Of a stretch of 12,577 nucleotides of DNA, positions 185 through 11,370 are shown one piece after another (position 1 is the stretch's first letter; every line of letters starts with the position of its first letter). The DNA lies in assembly GCA_026418875.1 (NCBI GenBank), contig JAOAAM010000508.1, positions 1 through 12,577 on the forward strand, written 5' to 3'. The DNA is from Gemmataceae bacterium (GTDB taxonomy: Bacteria; Planctomycetota; Planctomycetia; Gemmatales; Gemmataceae). The notes beneath the pieces are model-generated. The model saw only the letters and a list, made by a program, of their open reading frames with translations, was not told the origin of the DNA and did no database searches. The position numbers and the translations under genes were made by a program.

Positions 185-251
185 GAACCGGGAACGTGGG
201 GGTCACGGCGGGGGGGTGAGTGTCGGCAGCCGTGAGGGCGGTATGCCAAGC

Positions 252-280
252 TTGTCGCGAGCCAGGGCAGGTGGGATAAT
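252..280 (+). promoter_or_regulatory. Sigma70-like promoter before the exonuclease gene
   Basis: TTGTCG (252-257) and GATAAT (275-280) are separated by 17 bp, a good match to a housekeeping promoter. The -10 box ends only 6 bp before the ATG at 287. Transcription would then start at or next to that ATG and give a leaderless message, unless translation starts at the in-frame ATG at 320. This is by inspection only. Confidence 0.4.
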
Positions 281-286
281 TCCGGC

Positions 287-865
287 ATGCCGTTGCTGTC
301 ATGGAAGTCGGGCGCTCCCATGGTGCCGCCGGGGTCATTCGTGGCGTTGGATTTCGAGACCGCAGACCCGGGCTACGATAGTGCCTGCGCCTTGAGCGTG
401 ATTCGGGTCGATGATGACACGATCACGGAAAAGCGGACCCGGTTGATTCGTCCGCCGCGACTGCGTTTTCGCTTCACCCACATTCACGGCATCACTTGGA
501 AACACGTCCAGGATTGCCCGACGTTCGCGCAATGCTGGCCCGATTTTTTGCCGTTGCTCGACGGCGTGAGCTTCATCGCCGCCCACAATGCCCGTTTCGA
601 CGAGATGGTCCTGACGACATGCTGCACGATGGCGGGGCTGACGGTGCCGGCGATTCCCTGGTTGTGCAGCGTGCGGCTGGCTCGGCGGACCTGGGGCCTT
701 CGCGCCAATCGCTTGCCCGACCTGGCCCGACACCTGGGTTTCCGATTGAAACACCACGACCCCGAGTCCGACGCCGAAGCCTGTGCCCGCATCGTGTTAG
801 CTGCCCGGGCGATCCACCGCTCCCGCCATTCGCCGCAACCCGAACCGTTGCCGCACGAGCTATGA
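287..865 (+). CDS. DnaQ-like DEDDh 3'-5' exonuclease
   Basis: This is a 192-residue protein of the RNase H-fold DEDDh exonuclease family (DnaQ/PolC epsilon-like), which removes nucleotides from 3' ends using two metal ions. Motif I is VALDFET with D22 and E24, motif II is AAHNARFDEMVL with D105, and motif III is HHDPESDA with H157 and D162, so all five catalytic positions are present. HGIT at 67-70 is the usual family element. There is no polymerase, BRCT or UvrC domain, so it is a stand-alone exonuclease like many DnaQ paralogues; whether it proofreads or serves repair or RNA turnover cannot be told. The last 20 or so residues are a basic, Pro-rich tail. ATG 287 lies 6 bp from a -10-like box without a Shine-Dalgarno sequence. 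ATG 320 (M12, followed by VPPGSFVALDFET) would also give a complete domain and is a real alternative start. The next gene begins 61 bp downstream on the same strand. Confidence 0.88.
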   Translation: MPLLSWKSGAPMVPPGSFVALDFETADPGYDSACALSVIRVDDDTITEKRTRLIRPPRLRFRFTHIHGITWKHVQDCPTFAQCWPDFLPLLDGVSFIAAHNARFDEMVLTTCCTMAGLTVPAIPWLCSVRLARRTWGLRANRLPDLARHLGFRLKHHDPESDAEACARIVLAARAIHRSRHSPQPEPLPHEL

Positions 866-913
866 ATGAGCTCGAACATCGGTCACCCAAACGAAACCTA
901 CAGCCGAGACAGC

Positions 914-919
914 GGAGGG
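914..919 (+). promoter_or_regulatory. Ribosome binding site that fixes the selenoprotein start
   Basis: GGAGGG lies 7 bases before the ATG at 927. It is the strongest Shine-Dalgarno sequence in this part of the window. It supports initiation upstream of the in-frame TGA at 966 and argues against a start at GTG 1017, which has no comparable site. Confidence 0.8.
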
Positions 920-926
920 AAGCGAG

Positions 927-1283
927 ATGCCCAAGAAGATTGCCTGGCGCTATCATCGCCCGGCTTGAACGACCTGCAAGCGGGCGCAGGGGTTCCTTGA
1001 CGCCAACGCTTGCGAGGTGGCCACGACGGTGGACTCCAACAAGCAGAAAATCGGCCCCGCCGACGCCCTGAAATTGCTCGACGGAGTGCGCCGGCTGGTG
1101 GCCATCAAAGGGAAGAACGTCGTCGAGTACGATCTGGTCAAGGATCGCCCCGACGATGAGACGCTCCTCAAACACCTCATCGGACCCACCGGAAATCTAC
1201 GTGCCCCGAGCATCCGGGTCGGCGACGTCTTCGCGGTCGGGTTCAACGAGGAGATGTATCAGAAAATCCTCGGGGTGAAGTGA
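927..1283 (+). CDS. ArsC/Spx-like selenoprotein (in-frame UGA read as selenocysteine)
   Basis: This encodes a 118-residue protein of the ArsC/Spx thioredoxin-like family if the TGA at 966-968 is read as selenocysteine. It would start MPKKIAWRYHRPA, then U14-T-T-C17-KRAQGFLDAN. Spx and ArsC-like proteins carry a CxxC redox motif (CTSCRKA-type) at this place, so U14 replaces the first Cys and forms UxxC. The rest of the fold is intact: VDSNKQKIGPADALKLL (35-51), KGKNVVEYDL (61-70), DRPDDETLLKHL (73-84) and GPTGNLRAP (86-94), the last holding the Arg and Pro that correspond to the family's RP element. No other stop occurs from ATG 927 to TGA 1281-1283, and GGAGGG precedes the ATG. A SECIS-like hairpin lies at 983-1004. 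The exact reaction is unknown; a thiol/selenol oxidoreductase role is inferred, and true arsenate reduction is not shown. I recall that ArsC-family proteins with Sec at this position are known elsewhere. Alternatives are a Cys-to-stop mutation or base-call error, or a remnant starting at GTG 1017 (88 residues) lacking the redox motif. A hairpin terminator follows 5 bases after the stop. Confidence 0.8.
966..968 (+). other. In-frame UGA, predicted selenocysteine codon (Sec14)
   Basis: This is codon 14 of the ArsC/Spx-like gene. It lies three codons before TGC (Cys17), so the pair reads UxxC. Family members have Cys here, and reading continues in the same frame for 104 more codons with conserved sequence. 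The true stop at 1281-1283 is also TGA but lies next to a terminator and has no comparable hairpin placed 3' to it inside coding sequence. Confidence 0.78.
983..1004 (+). promoter_or_regulatory. Predicted bacterial SECIS element
   Basis: Bases 983-990 (GGCGCAGG) pair with 995-1004 (CCUUGACGCC): G983-C1004, G984-C1003, C985-G1002, G986-C1001, C987-G999, A988-U998, G989-C996 and G990-C995. U997 and A1000 are bulged, and the apical loop is GGUU (991-994). Twenty-two bases separate the UGA from the loop. The E. coli fdhF SECIS likewise has a GU in its apical loop and a bulged U, contacted by SelB, with a similar spacing from UGA. That match is by inspection; no folding energy was computed. The element would direct SelB with Sec-tRNA to the UGA. 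Confidence 0.68.
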
Positions 1284-1288
1284 GTCAA

Positions 1289-1315
1289 GCCGGGGACGCT
1301 TTCGTCGTCCCCGGC
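1289..1315 (+). terminator. Hairpin terminator after the selenoprotein gene
   Basis: GCCGGGGACG (1289-1298) pairs perfectly with CGTCCCCGGC (1306-1315) around a 7-base loop, starting 5 bases after the stop codon. The U tract after it is weak (GTTTC). It resembles an intrinsic terminator and probably ends the exonuclease/selenoprotein transcript. Confidence 0.7.
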
Positions 1316-1343
1316 GTTTCGCCCTCGGCGTTTCGCCCTCGGC
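1312..1343. repeat. 14-bp tandem duplication
   Basis: CGGCGTTTCGCCCT occurs twice in direct succession (1312-1325 and 1326-1339) and is followed by a third partial copy, CGGC. It overlaps the 3' arm of the terminator hairpin. It looks like local slippage or duplication and no function is implied. Confidence 0.9.
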
Positions 1344-1607
1344 TGCCAATTCGACGGGCGAGAGGTCGGTCGCAATCGGGCTAGATGCGCTCAGACCAGC
1401 GTCTCCGTTTCCTCAACGAAGCTTCCCACTCGTTCGGCAAACGGTGAGGCGGACCACTCCCACGGCATCGGCTCGACCGTCCCCCCCCACCCCGCCGCCA
1501 ACTCGGATGTTGCCCTGCCCCAGACTCGGCCTGTTCGGCTCATTTCGGCTCGCCGCCGCGGCCTCCCGACGCCAATCCCGGGACGTTTCAGGCATGCCTT
1601 GGTGCCC

Positions 1608-1636
1608 TTGAACATCCGCGGAGGAACTCGGAAAAT
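1608..1636 (+). promoter_or_regulatory. Sigma70-like promoter before the first PSCyt1/DUF1553 gene
   Basis: TTGAAC (1608-1613) and GAAAAT (1631-1636) are 17 bp apart. Transcription would start near 1643 and leave a leader of roughly 37 bases. The site probably drives the 1680-5667 gene pair. Found by inspection. Confidence 0.38.
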
Positions 1637-1679
1637 AGGGGTGGTCCCGCCTGATGCGAACCTTTTGCGGTAAGTCAGC

Positions 1680-4205
1680 ATGAAATTCCGATCTCGCCTG
1701 CAATTCTTCGGATTCTCCGCGCCGGGGTGGATGGCGTTGTTCGCGTTGTTTGCGTCGTTCGCCGCGCTCGGAGTCGTTGGTCTGGCGGGTGCCGATGAGC
1801 CGAAATTCTCCCCAGAGGATTTGCGGTTTTTTGATCAAGAGGTGCGGCCCATCCTGGAGGCGAACTGCCTCAAGTGCCATAGCGGCGAGACGAAGCGTGC
1901 GGGGTTGGATCTGTCGCGGCGGGAAAGCATTTTGAAAGGCGGGGACAGCGGGCCGGCGGTGTCGCTGGAAAAGCCGGACGACAGCCGACTGCTGCGCGCC
2001 ATTCGCTACACCGATCCGGAATTGAAGATGCCCCCCACGGGTCCGCTACCGCCCAAGTCGGTCGAGACACTGACAGCGTGGGTGAAGCGGGGGTTGCCGG
2101 GTCGGCGGATCGAAGTCGCTTCGGCGCATCCGGTTCGTGGCGGCGTGGTCACCCCGGAGGCTCGGCAAGCCTGGCCGTATCGTCCGTTGACCCGGCCGCC
2201 GGTTCCCAAGGTCGCGGAGGTCACCCATCCCATCGATGCCTTCATCCGCGCGAAGCTCGATGAACAGGGGCTGAAGATGAACGAGCCAGCGGACAAGATC
2301 GCCCTGGTTCGTCGGGTCTACTACGACCTGATCGGCCTGCCGCCGACTCCCGAACAAGTGGATGCCTTCGTCGCCGACGATGCCCCCGACGCTTACGAAC
2401 GCCTGATCGACCGCTTGCTCGAATCGCCGCACTACGGTGAGCGCTGGGGCCGACATTGGCTCGACCTGGTCCGCTATGCCGAGACGAATGGCTACGAGCG
2501 CGACGGCCCGAAACCTTTCGCCTGGCGCTATCGCGATTACGTCATCAAGAGCTTCAACGACGACAAGCCGTTCGACCGCTTCATCCTGGAACAGCTGGCG
2601 GGCGACGAATTGGATCGCGACAACCCGGAGGCCATCATCGGCACGGGCTACTATCGCTTGGGCCTGTGGGATGACGAACCGGCGGACCCGCTGCAATCGC
2701 GCTACGACGAGTTCGACGATTGGGTGGCGACGACGTGCCAGGTGTTCCTCGGCATGACGATGAATTGTGCCCGTTGTCATGAGCACAAGATCGACCCCAT
2801 CCCGCAAGCCGATTATTACCGAATGCTGGCCTTCTTCCAGGACGTGCAACATTTCAGCAACAGTCGGGACACCCGCTCCAGCTTCAACCTGACGGACATC
2901 TCGCCGCCCGAGAAGCGCCGGAGTTACGAGGCGGAGTTGCAGCGGCGTGAGGCGGAGAAGGAGCGGATCACGCGGGAGATGACGCAGTTGGAGGACGAGG
3001 CGATCCGTCGGATGCCCGCGGAGGATCAGCGTGCCGCCGAGGGAATCGATCGCCCCGCCGTGGTGGCGAAGTTGAAGGAGTACTTCACCAAGGAAGAGAA
3101 TCAGAAGTACACGCAATTAAAGCGGGAGTTGAATCGGCTGCGCTCGTTGCCGGAGATCCCGCGGGAGTTGGCCCTGTCGGTGAACAACTGTTTGGTGCAG
3201 GTGCCCGACACCTTCGTCATGCAGCGGGGGAATCCGCATGCCCCGGGTGCGAAGGTGGAGCCGGGCTTCCCGGAAGTGCTCGGCTTCCCCGATCCGCAGA
3301 TTCCGCCTCCGCCGCCGGGAGCGCGGAGTAGCGGTCGTCGGTTGGTCCTGGCGAAATGGATTGCCTCGCCGCAGAATCCATTGACGGCCCGAGTGTTAGC
3401 CAATCGCCTCTGGCAGCACCATTTCGGCCGCGGAATTGTCGCCACGCCGAACGATTTCGGTAAGTTCGGCACCCCGCCGACCCACCCCGAGTTGCTGGAT
3501 TGGCTCGCCTGCGAACTGATCGAGCGGGGCTGGAAGCTGAAGCCCATGCATCGACTCATCATGACCTCGCAAGCGTATCGGCAGTCGTCTCGTGGCAACG
3601 ACGAGGGATTGCTCAAAGATCCCTCGAACCAGTGGTTCTGGCGCTTCAACATGCGTCGCCTCTCGGCTGAGGAAGTTCGTGATTCGCTGTTGATGGTGAG
3701 CGGGCAACTCAACCTGAAAGCGGGCGGACCGAGCGTGTATCCGAAGATCCCCAAGGAAGTGCTGGCGGGGCAGTCGCGACCGGGTGAGGGTTGGCCCGTC
3801 TCGCCGCCGCAAGAGGCCAACCGACGCTCCATCTACGTGGGCGTCAAACGGTCGCTGCAACTGCCCATCTTGGCCCAGCACGATCAAGCCGACACCGATT
3901 CCAGTTGCCCGGTACGCTACACGACCACCGTGCCGACGCAAGCGCTAGGCCTGGTCAATAGCGAATTCGCCCAAGAGACCGCGGCAGCCTTGGCGGCCCG
4001 GTTGCGGAAAGACCGTCCTGAGGATCTGTCGGCGCAGGTGCGCTGGGCCATCCGCCTGACGACCGGCCGCCTGCCCGACGAACAGGAAGTGGCCGAAGAC
4101 GTCGCCTTCATCGCCGAGTTGCAGCGGATCTCGCCGAAGGCCGACGCCCTGCAACAGTATTGTTTGATGATTTTGAATACGAACGAGTTCGTGTATCTCG
4201 ATTGA
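1680..4205 (+). CDS. Exported PSCyt1-DUF1549-DUF1553 (PSD1) protein, copy 1
   Basis: This 841-residue protein has the classical planctomycete three-domain layout. Residues 1-38 are a Sec-type signal peptide (basic start, hydrophobic 18-38, likely cut near GAD at 37-39). PSCyt1 (about 50-140) carries C63-L-K-C66-H67, a c-type haem-binding CxxCH motif, and ends in KMPP plus an [12 protein letters not shown] helix. DUF1549/PSCyt2 (about 183-395) carries a second motif, C363-A-R-C366-H367-E-H-K-I-D-P. A charged, probably coiled-coil linker follows (about 415-480, rich in E, R and K). DUF1553/PSD1 (about 552-841) includes [20 protein letters not shown] and ends with the hallmark [10 protein letters not shown]. 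The family's function is not established; the exported location and CxxCH motifs suggest an extracytoplasmic redox or catabolic role. The start has little Shine-Dalgarno sequence. The stop at 4203-4205 overlaps the ribosome binding site of the DUF1501 gene, so the two are co-translated. An internal PPPPP run lies near residue 540. Confidence 0.93.
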
Positions 4206-4208
4206 GGG
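4204..4208 (+). promoter_or_regulatory. Ribosome binding site inside the preceding stop codon
   Basis: GAGGG overlaps the TGA stop (4203-4205) of the upstream gene and lies 7 bases before ATG 4216. It is too close to GTG 4210, which decides the start in favour of 4216 and implies translational coupling of the pair. Confidence 0.7.
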
Positions 4209-4215
4209 AGTGGCC

Positions 4216-5667
4216 ATGAGCGGCGAACGTCAATTTTGTCGTCGGACGCGGCGGGAATTCCTGTGGGAAGCCGGTGCGGGCTTCGGGGCAGCCGCGTTGA
4301 CATCGCTTCTTTCGGCCGACGGCTTCTTCGACAAGTTGCACGCGGCGGAGAAGTTCGCCAGCCCCTTGGCCCCCCGCCGACCGCATTACACCGGCCCGGC
4401 CAAAGCGTGCATTTTCATCTTCTGCTACGGCGGGCCGAGCCACATCGACACCTTCGACTACAAGCCCAAGCTGTACGACCTGGATGGCAAAACCATCCCG
4501 ATCAAAACCTTCGGTCGGGCGGGGAAACGGAACGAAGGGCGTGTGGTCGGCCCGAAATGGAAGTTCCGGCCCTATGGCCAATGCGGGAAGTATGTCAGCG
4601 ACTTGTTTCCGCACATCGGCACCTGCGTGGACGACATCGCCTTTTTGCATGGCATGTACGCCGAGTCGCCCATCCACGGGTCGGCCATGCTCATGATGAA
4701 TTCCGGCCGCTTGCTCAGCGGCAGCCCCTCGCTGGGGTCGTGGATCACCTACGGCCTGGGCAGCGAGAACGAAAACCTACCCGGCTTCGTCGTCATGCTG
4801 GACAAGACCGGCGGGCCGATCAGCGGTCCGAAAAACTGGTCGAGCGGCTACATGCCGGCAGCCTACCAAGGCGTCGTCATTCGCGCCGACGACACGCCGA
4901 TCTACAACCTGGAGCGGCCTGCGGGAATGAGCGAAGCCGCCCAACGCAAACTCCTCGATCGTCTGCGGGAGAAGAACGAGGCGCATCTGTCGGCTCGACC
5001 CGACAACTCCGAATTGGCCGCGCGGATCGCCAGCTATGAGATGGCCTTCAACATGCAGAAGCACGCCCCCGAGGCGGTCGACTTCTCGCAGGAAACCAAA
5101 GAGACGCTGGCCCTTTATGGCATCGACGGTTCGCGCACGGAAGACTTCGGCCGAAAGTGCCTGCTTGCCCGACGGCTGGTCGAGCGCGGCGTCCGCTTCG
5201 TGCAGATCTATTCCGGCGGTGCTCACAACGACGACAACTGGGATGCCCACACCGACATCGTCAAGAATCACAGCAAACATGCCGGAGACATCGACAAGCC
5301 CGTCGCGGCTCTGCTGAAAGACTTGAAACGTCGCGGCTTGCTCGATTCCACGATTGTCATCTGGGGCGGCGAGTTCGGCCGGCAACCCACCGCCGAGTAT
5401 GCCCAAGGCACCGGCCGTGACCACAACAGCTACGGTTTCACGATGTGGCTGGCTGGCGGCGGCGTCAAAGGCGGTGTCAGCGTGGGGGCCACCGACGAAC
5501 TCGGCAACAATGCCGTGGAAGACCGCTTCCACGTCAAGCACCTGCACGCCACCGTCTTGCACCTGATGGGCTTGGACCCGAATCGGTTGAGCTACTTCTA
5601 CGGCGGGTTGAACCAACGGCTTGTCGGTGTCGAGGGGGCCGACCCGATCCACAAGATCGTCGCTTGA
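4216..5667 (+). CDS. Tat-exported DUF1501 protein, copy 1
   Basis: This 483-residue DUF1501 protein is the usual partner of PSCyt1/DUF1553 proteins. The family is related to the alkaline phosphatase/sulfatase fold; its reaction is unknown. The N-terminus carries a twin-arginine signal, T11-R12-R13-E14-F15-L16, then a weakly hydrophobic AGAGFGAAALTSLLSA segment, so it should be exported folded. Family landmarks are GGPSHIDTFD (72-81), WGGEFGRQPT (383-392) and GRDHNSYGFTMWLAGGGVKGG starting near 400, with D402 and H403 as candidate metal ligands. It ends in a short HLMGLDPNRLSYFYGG-type tail typical of the family. The start is ATG 4216 and not GTG 4210 because of the ribosome binding site. The gap to the upstream gene is 10 bases. 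A long hairpin at 5700-5737 closes the operon. Confidence 0.92.
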   Translation: MSGERQFCRRTRREFLWEAGAGFGAAALTSLLSADGFFDKLHAAEKFASPLAPRRPHYTGPAKACIFIFCYGGPSHIDTFDYKPKLYDLDGKTIPIKTFGRAGKRNEGRVVGPKWKFRPYGQCGKYVSDLFPHIGTCVDDIAFLHGMYAESPIHGSAMLMMNSGRLLSGSPSLGSWITYGLGSENENLPGFVVMLDKTGGPISGPKNWSSGYMPAAYQGVVIRADDTPIYNLERPAGMSEAAQRKLLDRLREKNEAHLSARPDNSELAARIASYEMAFNMQKHAPEAVDFSQETKETLALYGIDGSRTEDFGRKCLLARRLVERGVRFVQIYSGGAHNDDNWDAHTDIVKNHSKHAGDIDKPVAALLKDLKRRGLLDSTIVIWGGEFGRQPTAEYAQGTGRDHNSYGFTMWLAGGGVKGGVSVGATDELGNNAVEDRFHVKHLHATVLHLMGLDPNRLSYFYGGLNQRLVGVEGADPIHKIVA

Positions 5668-7527: not shown

Positions 7528-9897
7528 ATGCCCCGAGTCGTGACGATGTTGGCTAGGTTGGTGTCGGCTCCGGCAACGGTTTTGGGCACTCTGGCACTCA
7601 CGTTGACGACGGCGTCTCCGGCCGTCGGAGCCGAGCCGACGGTCGACTTCAACCGCGATGTTCGTCCCATCCTGTCGGACAATTGCTTCCGCTGTCATGG
7701 TCCGGATGAGAAGGAACGGAAGGCGGAGTTGCGGCTGGACGTTCGGGAGTCGGCCGTGGGTCAGGAGGTCATCGTCCCGGGGAAAAGCGGGGAGAGCGAG
7801 TTGCTGCGGCGGATCACGGCGAGGGAGGCGAGCCAGCGGATGCCCCCGCCCTCGACCGGCAAGCAACTGAGCGAAGCACAAATCGAGACACTTCGGCGAT
7901 GGATCGACGAGGGAGCCTCGTATGCCAAGCACTGGGCCTTCGTGCCGCCCAAGCGGCCTGCGGGGGGGTCGATCGATGAGTTCATTCGCCGAAAACTGGA
8001 AGCGGTTGGCCTGACCATGTCACCCGAGGCCAGCCGAGAGCGATTGATCCGCCGGGTGACGCTCGACCTGACGGGTCTGCCGCCGACCTTGGCCGAGATC
8101 GATGCCTTTGTCCATGATCCATCGCCCGATGCCTACGAGAAGGTGGTCGATCGGCTGTTGAACTCGCCCCGTTACGGCGAGCGGATGGCCCTGGATTGGC
8201 TGGATGCCGCCCGCTTCGCCGACACCCACGGCTACCACATCGATAGCGGCCGGGACATGACCCGTTGGCGCGACTGGGTCATCGACGCGTTCAATCGCAA
8301 CCTGCCATTCGACCAGTTCACCATCGAGCAGTTGGCCGGCGACCTCCTCCCGAATGCCACGGTCGAGCAGAAGATCGCCAGCGGCTTCAACCGCAATCAC
8401 ATGATCAACTTTGAAGGCGGCGCCATCCCGGAGGAGTATCACACAGCCTACATCGTCGATCGAGTGAACACCACGGCCACGGTCTGGTTGGGTTTGTCGC
8501 TGGCCTGCGCCCAATGCCACGATCACAAGTACGACCCGTTCACGCAGAAGGACTACTATCGCCTCTATGCGTTCTTCCACAATGTTCCGGAGAACGGCTT
8601 GGACGGCTCCCGCGGCAACGCCGCCCCGCTCCTCCGCTTCCCCACGCCGGAACAACAGCGCGAACTGGACCGCTTGGCGGAAGAAATCGCTCGCTGGCAG
8701 AAGCTGGAGAAATGGCCCTTCTTGGCCAAGTGGGCGAAATCACAGCAGGCTCCCCTGCAACAGCAGCGGGACAAGCTGGAGCGGCAAGTGCCCACCACCA
8801 TGGTCATGCAGGAGATGCCCCGGCCACGCGACACCTTCATCCTCATCCGCGGAGCGTATGACAAGAAGGGGGAGAAGGTGACGGCAGGGCTGCCCGAGGC
8901 CTTGGTTGAACATCCGATCTCGACGGACCGCCCGTTGAATCGGCTCGATCTCGCCCGTTGGATCGTCTCCGAAGAGAACCCGCTGACCGCCCGGGTGATC
9001 GTCAATCGTTATTGGCAGATGTTTTTCGGGACGGGTTTAGTCAAGACGTCGGAAGATTTTGGTACCCAAGGCGAATACCCTTCGCACCCCGAATTGTTGG
9101 ATTGGCTTGCCGTCGAATTTCGCGAGTCGGGCTGGGACGTGAAGCGGCTGGTGAAAATGATCGTGATGTCGGCGGCGTATCGGCAGGATTCTCGAGTTCG
9201 GCCCGAGCACCTGCAAAAGGACCCGGAAAACCGGCTGCTCGCCCGGGCCTCCCGCTTACGTTTGCAAGCGGAGTTCATCCGAGATCAGGCGCTGGCGGTC
9301 AGTGGGCTGCTGAACGGCGAGATCGGGGGAAGGAGCGTCTTCCCATATCAGCCGCCGGGGCTCTGGGAGGAACTGATGTCCCGGGCCGACGGGGCGAATT
9401 GGACGGCCCAAACCTACACCCCCAGCCACGGGAAAGATCTTTACCGCCGAACGATGTACACCTTCTGGAAGCGGACCTGCCCGCCGCCCACCTTGGCAAC
9501 CTTCGACGCCCCGGACCGCGAAGTCTGCACGGTGCGACGGCCCCGGACCAACACCCCGCTGCAAGCGCTGATCTTGATGAACGACCCGACCTACGTCGAG
9601 GCTTCCCGGAAGTTGGCCGAGCGCCTTTTGCGTGAAGCCGACTCGACCGACGAGCGGATTCGCCTCGCCTTCCGCCTGTGCACGGGTCGGCTTCCGAACG
9701 AGCAAGAATTCAGTATCCTCCAACGGTTGTTCGAGGATCGACGGACGAAATATCGGCAGGACCGAGAGGCAGCCCTGAAACTGTTGTCGGTCGGCGAATC
9801 GCCCCGGGACGAGGCCTTGCCGTTCGAGGAATTGGCAGCGTGGAGCTCGCTTGCCAGCGTCATACTGAACCTGGACGAAACCATCACACGGAACTAG
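7528..9897 (+). CDS. Exported PSCyt1-DUF1549-DUF1553 (PSD1) protein, copy 2
   Basis: This 789-residue protein is a paralogue of the gene at 1680, with the same layout. A Sec-type signal peptide covers residues 1-35 (AVGA before E36). PSCyt1 (about 40-130) has C53-F-R-C56-H57 followed by GPDEKERKAELRLD and an RMPPP element. DUF1549/PSCyt2 (about 148-352) has C327-A-Q-C330-H331-D-H-K-Y-D-P. A Gln/Lys-rich, probably helical linker (about 370-425) is followed by DUF1553/PSD1 (about 468-789) with NPLTARVIVNRYWQMFFGTG and a final SVILNLDETITRN. Compared with copy 1 it has a shorter PSCyt1-to-PSCyt2 spacer. It carries the DREVCTVRRPRTNTPLQALI stretch, where copy 1 has [24 protein letters not shown] lies 7 bases before the ATG. 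It probably forms an operon with the DUF1501 gene 45 bases downstream. Function of the family is unknown. Confidence 0.93.
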   Translation: MPRVVTMLARLVSAPATVLGTLALTLTTASPAVGAEPTVDFNRDVRPILSDNCFRCHGPDEKERKAELRLDVRESAVGQEVIVPGKSGESELLRRITAREASQRMPPPSTGKQLSEAQIETLRRWIDEGASYAKHWAFVPPKRPAGGSIDEFIRRKLEAVGLTMSPEASRERLIRRVTLDLTGLPPTLAEIDAFVHDPSPDAYEKVVDRLLNSPRYGERMALDWLDAARFADTHGYHIDSGRDMTRWRDWVIDAFNRNLPFDQFTIEQLAGDLLPNATVEQKIASGFNRNHMINFEGGAIPEEYHTAYIVDRVNTTATVWLGLSLACAQCHDHKYDPFTQKDYYRLYAFFHNVPENGLDGSRGNAAPLLRFPTPEQQRELDRLAEEIARWQKLEKWPFLAKWAKSQQAPLQQQRDKLERQVPTTMVMQEMPRPRDTFILIRGAYDKKGEKVTAGLPEALVEHPISTDRPLNRLDLARWIVSEENPLTARVIVNRYWQMFFGTGLVKTSEDFGTQGEYPSHPELLDWLAVEFRESGWDVKRLVKMIVMSAAYRQDSRVRPEHLQKDPENRLLARASRLRLQAEFIRDQALAVSGLLNGEIGGRSVFPYQPPGLWEELMSRADGANWTAQTYTPSHGKDLYRRTMYTFWKRTCPPPTLATFDAPDREVCTVRRPRTNTPLQALILMNDPTYVEASRKLAERLLREADSTDERIRLAFRLCTGRLPNEQEFSILQRLFEDRRTKYRQDREAALKLLSVGESPRDEALPFEELAAWSSLASVILNLDETITRN

Positions 9898-9942
9898 GCA
9901 CGACCTCTGGCGACCGGGGATCGACCCTGGAGGGAGCGGCGA

Positions 9943-11370
9943 ATGAATCCCGTGACCGAGTATGCGGCGTTGATGACGCGGCGGCACTTCTTTGGCCGGA
10001 CGGCAACCGGCATCGGCGTGGCCGCGCTGGCCTCGCTGTTGAATGGCGAGAAGGCCATCGCCTCGCCCCATTTCGCCCCCCGGGCCAAGCGAGTGATTTA
10101 CCTGTTCATGTCCGGCGGGCCATCCCACATCGACTTGTTCGACTTCAAGCCGAAATTGGCGGAATTGAACGGCACGGAACTGCCCGATTCGGTTCGCATG
10201 GGGCAACGCATCACCGGGATGACAGCCTATCAGGGCAAATTCCCGTGTGCCGCCTCGATCTTCAAGTTCCGGCAGCATGGCCAGAGCGGCACCTGGGTGA
10301 GCGAACTGTTGCCCAATATCGCCCGAGTCATCGATCATTGCGCCGTCGTCAAGTCGATGCACACCGAGGCGATCAATCACGATCCGGCGACGACGTACAT
10401 CCAGACGGGCAGCCAGCAGCCGGGCCGACCCAGCTTGGGGGCATGGCTCAGCTACGGCATCGGCAGCGAATCGAAAAACCTGCCCGCCTTCATCGTCATG
10501 ATCTCGCAAGGCTCAGGCAACAAGACCGACCAGCCCATCTTCTCCCGGTTGTGGGGAGCGGGATTCCTGCCCAGCCAGCATCAGGGCGTTCGCTTCCGTT
10601 CCGGGGCCGACCCCGTGCTGTATCTCTCGAATCCCCCCGGGATCGACACCGCGGATCGGCGAGCCATGCTCGATGCCGCCGGGCAATTGAATCAACTGGC
10701 GGCTCAGAGTTTCGGCGATCCCGAGATCAACACCCGAATTGCCCAATACGAAATGGCCTTCCGCATGCAGGCTTCGGTGCCCGAGCTGACCGACCTGTCG
10801 CGTGAAGATCGCCGGACGATCGAAATGTACGGCATCAAGGACGATGGGGTCGATGGCGGATTCGCCCGAAACTGCCTGCTGGCCCGACGGATGATCGAAC
10901 GCGGCGTCCGTTTCGTCCAACTCATGCACCGCGGCTGGGACCAGCACAGCGACCTGCCCAAGCAGATCCGCGGTCAATGCTCCGACGTGGACCGACCGAC
11001 GGCGGCCCTGATCGCCGACTTGAAGCAGCGCGGCCTGCTGGACGAGACGCTGGTCATATGGGGCGGCGAATTCGGGCGAACGGTTTATAGCCAGGGGGCG
11101 CTGACTAAGGATAACTACGGTCGGGATCACCACGGCCGATGCTTCTCGATGCTGCTTGCCGGCGGCGGAATCAAGCCGGGCATCACCTACGGCGAAACCG
11201 ACGATTATTGCTACAACATCGTGCGCGATCCGGTCCACATCCACGACTACAATGCGACGATCTTGCACCTGTTGGGCATTGACCACACCCGGTTGACGTA
11301 TCGGTTCATGGGGCGCGACTTCCGCCTGACCGACGTTCATGGCGAAGTTGTGCACGGGTTGCTGGCGTGA
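9943..11370 (+). CDS. Tat-exported DUF1501 protein, copy 2
   Basis: This 475-residue DUF1501 protein is a paralogue of the protein at 4216. Its Tat signal is T12-R13-R14-H15-F16-F17-G18, followed by [14 protein letters not shown]. Family landmarks are [14 protein letters not shown] (57-70), [10 protein letters not shown] (372-381) and [21 protein letters not shown] starting at 393, with D395 and H396 matching D402 and H403 of copy 1. The C-terminal [18 protein letters not shown] is the usual ending. A strong GGAGGGAG ribosome binding site (9929-9936) precedes the ATG. The gap to the upstream gene is 45 bases, wider than the 10 bases in copy 1. ATG at 9973 (M11, just before the Tat motif) is a possible alternative start. 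Confidence 0.92.

Follow-up and report, generated by a model that had tools for sequence, protein, structure and literature searches.

Whether the in-frame UGA near the beginning of a short planctomycete gene acts as a stop signal or as a selenocysteine (Sec) codon is the question raised by positions 927-1283 of the window, that is, the whole 12,577-nucleotide stretch of Gemmataceae bacterium DNA analysed here. The sequence-only reading had proposed that this gene encodes a hidden selenoprotein related to ArsC and Spx, with Sec at residue 14 of a UxxC motif. The gene's frame and family, its exchange of UGA and Cys, the covariation of its hairpin, the purifying selection on it and its predicted fold were all obtained by computation, and we consider it very probable that the gene belongs to the selenoprotein family NF041106 and that its UGA is translated as selenocysteine by means of the hairpin listed in Table 1.

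Table 1. Positions of the gene, its predicted recoding elements and its neighbours in the window.
Feature	Position	Strand	Basis
Putative selenoprotein gene of NF041106, ArsC/Spx-like; 118 residues plus stop	927..1283	+	read-through translation, profile matches
GGAGGG, ribosome-binding-site-like; 7 bases between motif and ATG 927-929	914..919	+	direct reading
In-frame TGA, codon 14, predicted to be read as selenocysteine	966..968	+	TGA here in 81/104 family loci
Cys17 codon, second half of the UxxC pair	975..977	+	Cys in 103/103 readable loci
bSECIS-like hairpin	972..1018	+	fold stability, consensus core, covariation in relatives
Upper stem with apical loop GUU	987-991 with 995-999; loop 992-994	+	
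Bulged A and lower stem, with additional pairing to 972/1018	A1000; 983-986 with 1001-1004	+	
88-aa GTG ORF of the table-11 ORF list, without Sec14 and Cys17	1017..1283	+	
DnaQ-like exonuclease (RNase_T), neighbour, collinear in same-genus relative	287..865	+	
PSCyt1/PSCyt2/PSD1 protein, then DUF1501 protein	1680-5667		

The ATG with its upstream GGAGGG, the TGA as sole frame break and Cys17 all lie where they had been placed. When TGA is translated as a residue, the frame gives 118 residues with a single internal TGA and a terminal TGA, and the active-site motif of the product is U14-T-T-C17. This read-through protein matched NF041106, "ArsC family (seleno)protein", with 135.1 bits (cut-off 85) over model positions 1-107 of 107, as well as Pfam ArsC (PF03960) with 30.6 bits (gathering cut-off 24); because both cut-offs were passed, the read-through frame is more than chance. 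Scores against the Spx models fell below their cut-offs (TIGR01617, 27.6 of 75.05 bits; NF002459, 15.3 of 123 bits). As had been predicted, the standard ORF call reduces the gene to its C-terminal 88 residues, starting from the GTG and lacking the active site. This fragment by itself scores 92.4 bits against NF041106, and annotation using that model could flag the gene since the fragment passes the cut-off.

The description of the selenoprotein as hidden did not stand, because NF041106 is already catalogued as a (seleno)protein family and has been included in a published table. In a table of the 2026 review PMC13188914, NF041106 is given as "Arsenate reductase-like protein" with a UxxC motif and reference 61, which, judging from the order of the reference list, is the 2008 Global Ocean Sampling paper PMC2398784. 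A table row of that paper reads "Arsenate reductase 2, cd03032, UxxC, 42", and this row presumably corresponds to NF041106. "ArsC-like" selenoproteins are also tabulated in PMC1794560, and full Sec-insertion gene sets were reported in G. obscuriglobus and I. pallida (PMC4807772). Since both are in published work, neither the NF041106 family nor the use of Sec by planctomycetes is new. The window protein resembles NF041106 ArsC_rel_Se_1 in its whole-length match, in the UxxC at the same position and in the Sec/Cys exchange within the family; no substantial difference was seen, and the window adds a further copy, from a Gemmataceae-type assembly. Among the papers found on selenoproteins and selenocysteine in Planctomycetes and Gemmata, no description of the 927-1283 gene was recognised, and no paper settling the role of the NF041106 family was found. 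In PMC4807772, "ArsC" occurs once, in the reference list, where it appears to be part of an author's name. A catalogued selenoprotein family is now placed firmly in this planctomycete family and across the phylum, and the locus is of interest for a same-genus Sec/Cys pair and a hairpin with covariation rather than for the protein's existence.

Matches to NF041106 above the cut-off came from 64 of 294 genomes sampled across the phylum and from 42 of 59 relatives, which gave 104 distinct loci when combined. Codon 14 of these planctomycete loci is TGA (81), TGC (17), TGT (4) or GAC (Asp, one locus), with one locus unreadable, and it should be noted that the loci are related and the codon 14 counts are not independent. 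The expectation of only Cys or UGA at this codon was borne out in 102 of the 104 loci, the Asp copy and the unreadable locus being the other two; every one of the 103 readable loci has Cys at codon 17. Frame breaks or varied residues, as in a decaying gene, had been named as a warning sign, and among the matches listed from both searches the internal stops were either none or a single TGA, never TAA or TAG. The counts at codons 14 and 17, together with these TGA-only internal stops, indicate a Sec/Cys family and not a decaying gene. In 70 aligned sequences, drawn from the 103 readable loci with the Asp copy left out, R11, C14, C17, G86, G89, L91, P94 and G105 are invariant (UGA read as C).

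The Asp copy (L145) comes from genome G045, which also holds a TGA copy (L157), and is possibly a redox-dead or repurposed paralogue. The locus with the unreadable codon 14 residue (L140, genome G329) is a family member with a divergent N-terminus.

A same-genus orthologue (L014, at the same place as L066; genome G294) carries TGC at codon 14 and encodes a protein with 84% identity; collinearity between the window and this relative extends from about 236 to 4488. The dN/dS values against this orthologue (whole gene, 0.10; downstream of the UGA, 0.11; downstream of GTG 1017, 0.13) are rough because synonymous divergence is high (about 1.2); they indicate that purifying selection acts before and after the UGA, with a ratio of about 0.1 on either side. 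Nonsynonymous change is low, with approximately 1 of 31 sites changed upstream of the UGA (13 codons) and 5.5 of 38 between it and the GTG (16 codons). In a tree built from 57 of the 104 loci, whose bootstrap was not fully settled, the window gene and the same-genus orthologue are sisters (100/100) that differ as Sec versus Cys; the tree requires 10 Sec/Cys changes, at least seven of which are forced by well-supported branches. As judged from sequence comparison, the pair would represent a recent Sec/Cys swap, with the hairpin core apparently degraded in the sister orthologue. Presumably the sister gene changed from Sec to Cys. Such an orthologue pair within one genus is useful for studying Sec loss or gain.

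The hairpin of the window lies within the published limits of bSECIS elements. According to section 5 of PMC13188914, these comprise a loop of 3-9 nt with an early G, an upper stem of 4-16 bp, a spacing of 16-37 nt and an energy of at most -7.5 kcal/mol; the window hairpin has a loop of 3 nt with G first, an upper stem of five pairs before the bulge, a UGA-to-loop spacing of 23 nt and an energy below -7.5. The fold of positions 963-1020 reached -30.7 kcal/mol (z -4.04), and none of 200 shuffles was equally stable, while three shorter cuts of the hairpin were not clearly beyond their shuffles (z -1.26, 0.37 and -1.07). When synonymous codons were shuffled with the protein fixed, the window gave z -3.63, and the 38 TGA loci (mean -1.65) differed from the 19 Cys loci (mean -0.69; Mann-Whitney p 0.0035). 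The same-genus Cys orthologue, too, forms a more stable fold than synonymous shuffles of itself (z -2.96). An Rfam search of the window gave no match at E up to 1.

Covariation was assessed in 27 Sec rows, including the window (26 of the same order and one of the same class), in which the stem and loop are free of gaps. Among them, 88.4% of cells are paired versus 80.3% in shuffles, and only 29-59% when the stem is slid by up to three columns; 22 double-sided changes were counted versus 8.1 in shuffles, and one stem pair is seen as U-A, G-C and C-G. Further pair types were no better than shuffles in the same rows (10 versus 9.9). The window pairs at five of the eight positions of the consensus stem, followed by the bulged A and a re-registered lower stem. 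On the rigid eight-pair stem, the 38 TGA loci average 5.4 pairs and the 19 Cys loci 3.5, and many distant planctomycete Sec loci fit it poorly, down to one of eight pairs; the claim of covariation is therefore confined to the 27 rows, and several of the distant Sec loci seem to use a different hairpin register. In the hairpin core, the window agrees with the consensus of its relatives at 13 of 13 positions and the same-genus Cys sister at 9 of 13. The mean agreement is 11.6 in the 27 Sec rows (window included) and 7.9 in the Cys relatives (12 of 14, without L019 and L039), a gap that is partly built in because the consensus was derived from Sec rows. With these results, the 927-1283 gene gains a covariation-supported element of the SECIS type.

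The machinery for Sec decoding, the weak point of the case, was found only in part. The assembly to which the window belongs, as contig C369, comprises 816 contigs with 3.45 Mb in total and is 83.25% complete. The implication that this planctomycete uses selenocysteine is partly supported by this assembly, in which selA was found (557.6 bits; its contig is collinear with its counterpart in the sister genome) and selB, selC and selD were not. The absence of selA, selB and selC, named beforehand as a refutation, is seen only in part and neither overturns the reading nor clears it. For selB, no match over the cut-off was obtained, and a SelB profile from nine relatives gave none beyond 46.6 bits; the best SelB-like match in the genome is IF-2, followed by two weaker ones (33 and 32 bits). 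For selD, no match reached the cut-off of 125, and the only match (72.5 bits) is ThiL. For selC, neither an RF01852 search nor ARAGORN revealed the gene, and eight RF01852 matches in this genome (two of them over the cut-off) were typed by ARAGORN as tRNA-Ser, Leu, Val, Arg and His; the same search yielded ARAGORN-confirmed tRNA-Sec in six of 11 genomes tried. In the relative G310, each of the three is on a contig of its own, and simple arithmetic, assuming 17% missing at random, puts the chance of losing all three together at approximately 0.5%. Missing sequence is the likeliest cause of their absence; a recent loss of Sec decoding in the organism is conceivable, and less likely than missing sequence.

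Across the 59 relatives (window's genome included), selA, selB and selD were over their cut-offs in 44, 39 and 42 genomes, respectively. The comparison with codon 14 covered 41 genomes, the window's included, with a match over the cut-off and a readable codon (27 TGA, 14 Cys); G329, with its unreadable codon, and G319, with a partial match below the cut-off, were left out. None of the 27 TGA genomes lacks all of selA, selB and selD, versus four of the 14 Cys genomes (Fisher p 0.0099), and these four are each at least 95% complete. The selA gene is found in 26 of 27 TGA versus 10 of 14 Cys genomes (p 0.04), and neither selB alone (22 of 27 versus 9 of 14, p 0.27) nor selD alone (25 of 27 versus 10 of 14, p 0.16) was significantly tied to TGA. 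Five TGA genomes are without selB at the cut-off; three of them (G305, G325 and G335) hold C-terminal fragments of SelB, and those with neither selB nor fragments are the window's genome (83% complete) and G296 (75%).

G296, a member of the window's family, carries the TGA gene and selA, with no selB or selD found, and its best match to the tRNA-Sec model is a tRNA-Ser. In the same-genus genome G294, also 75% complete, selA and selD were found and selB and selC were not; its best SelB-like match is EF-Tu, and of its matches to the tRNA-Sec model the best alone was typed, as tRNA-Ser. A second selenoprotein family, NF041114, was not found in any of the 11 genomes searched. Among 43 SelD matches over the cut-off in the relatives, 20 contain one in-frame TGA, and nine sit in open frames 634-1439 codons long and may be parts of fusions.

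The incomplete machinery could also mean that the genus is losing Sec decoding, so that a gene which encoded a selenoprotein until recently now terminates at the UGA after residue 13. It would agree with this that selB and selC were found in neither of the two genus genomes examined, nor selD in the window's, and that the sister species has Cys at codon 14. We nevertheless regard such decay as improbable: the frame is intact to its end with low dN/dS on either side of the UGA, the hairpin core matches the consensus in full, and both genus genomes retain an open-frame selA, with selD in G294, in assemblies that are 83% and 75% complete. Besides, G305, G325 and G335 miss selB at the family cut-off yet hold C-terminal pieces of it. 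A related idea, that the genus has truly lost all or part of selB, selC and selD and still makes the full-length protein through unrecognised decoding or natural read-through, is given very little credence.

A sequencing or assembly error, by which the true codon would be TGC and the product an ordinary Cys protein, finds some support in the TGC of the G294 orthologue, from which a single wrong base could make UGA. Such an error would not bring along the Sec-type hairpin core that the window keeps in full and the Cys sister has in part, and it is thus disfavoured and thought quite unlikely. The 88-residue ORF, which table 11 does call, might instead be the real product with the upstream frame accidental; this is scarcely tenable, because the encoded protein sequence is conserved both ahead of the UGA (13 codons) and from there to the GTG (16 codons), and because residues 11, 14 and 17 are invariant in the 70 aligned sequences. 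The original assignment of the UGA as Sec14 of a UxxC ArsC/Spx-like protein is upheld by the family, the TGA/Cys exchange, the covarying hairpin and the purifying selection on either side. By the sequence-level tests, 927-1283 would be a selenoprotein gene of an ordinary kind, save for the unfound selB, selC and selD, and Sec is presumably inserted in the window's organism.

The AlphaFold2 model of the product has a mean pLDDT of 92.6, with residue 14 just before a helix (residues 15-26). The closest solved structures are those of Spx (profile E 3.2e-10; Foldseek E 8.2e-5, TM about 0.54). The protein shares its fold with the Spx regulators (1z3e, 6ghb and 3gfk), and the CTSC of Spx is aligned to its UxxC; unlike them, it has Sec for the first Cys, scores far below the Spx model cut-offs, and has four fewer residues in the stretch that contains Gly52 of Spx, an RNA-polymerase contact. 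It resembles the ArsC arsenate reductases (3f0i; PF03960) in exceeding the Pfam gathering score and in a weak Foldseek match (3f0i, E 8.6e-3), and differs from them in its two-residue UxxC pair.

A likely mechanism is SelB-directed Sec insertion, by which Sec14 and Cys17 would become a redox pair within a fold of the Spx/ArsC type. The mRNA hairpin would recruit SelB carrying Sec-tRNA(Sec), and the UGA would then be read as selenocysteine during translation; the product, 118 residues long, would have a thioredoxin fold and belong to the Spx/ArsC branch, with Sec14 placed just before its first helix. Sec14 and Cys17 may form a selenenyl-sulfide/selenol couple for redox chemistry, in which Sec14 would attack the substrate and Cys17 resolve the intermediate. 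The product is probably a selenol/thiol redox protein. With the UxxC pair and the LRAP segment conserved and the Spx Gly52 stretch shortened, a role as disulfide or selenenyl-sulfide reductase appears likelier than one in arsenate reduction or in binding RNA polymerase.

The neighbouring genes (DnaQ-like exonuclease, PSCyt1/PSCyt2/PSD1 protein) offer no hint of function. A second PSCyt1/PSCyt2/PSD1 and DUF1501 pair is apparent at window 7528-11370, by length and sequence. The first 19 positions of the window, at the contig start, read AGATGTGTATAAGAGACAG, which also occurs at positions 17-35 of L016 on contig C418; we take it to be the Tn5/Nextera mosaic-end sequence, and it is untrimmed adaptor at contig ends of the window's assembly.
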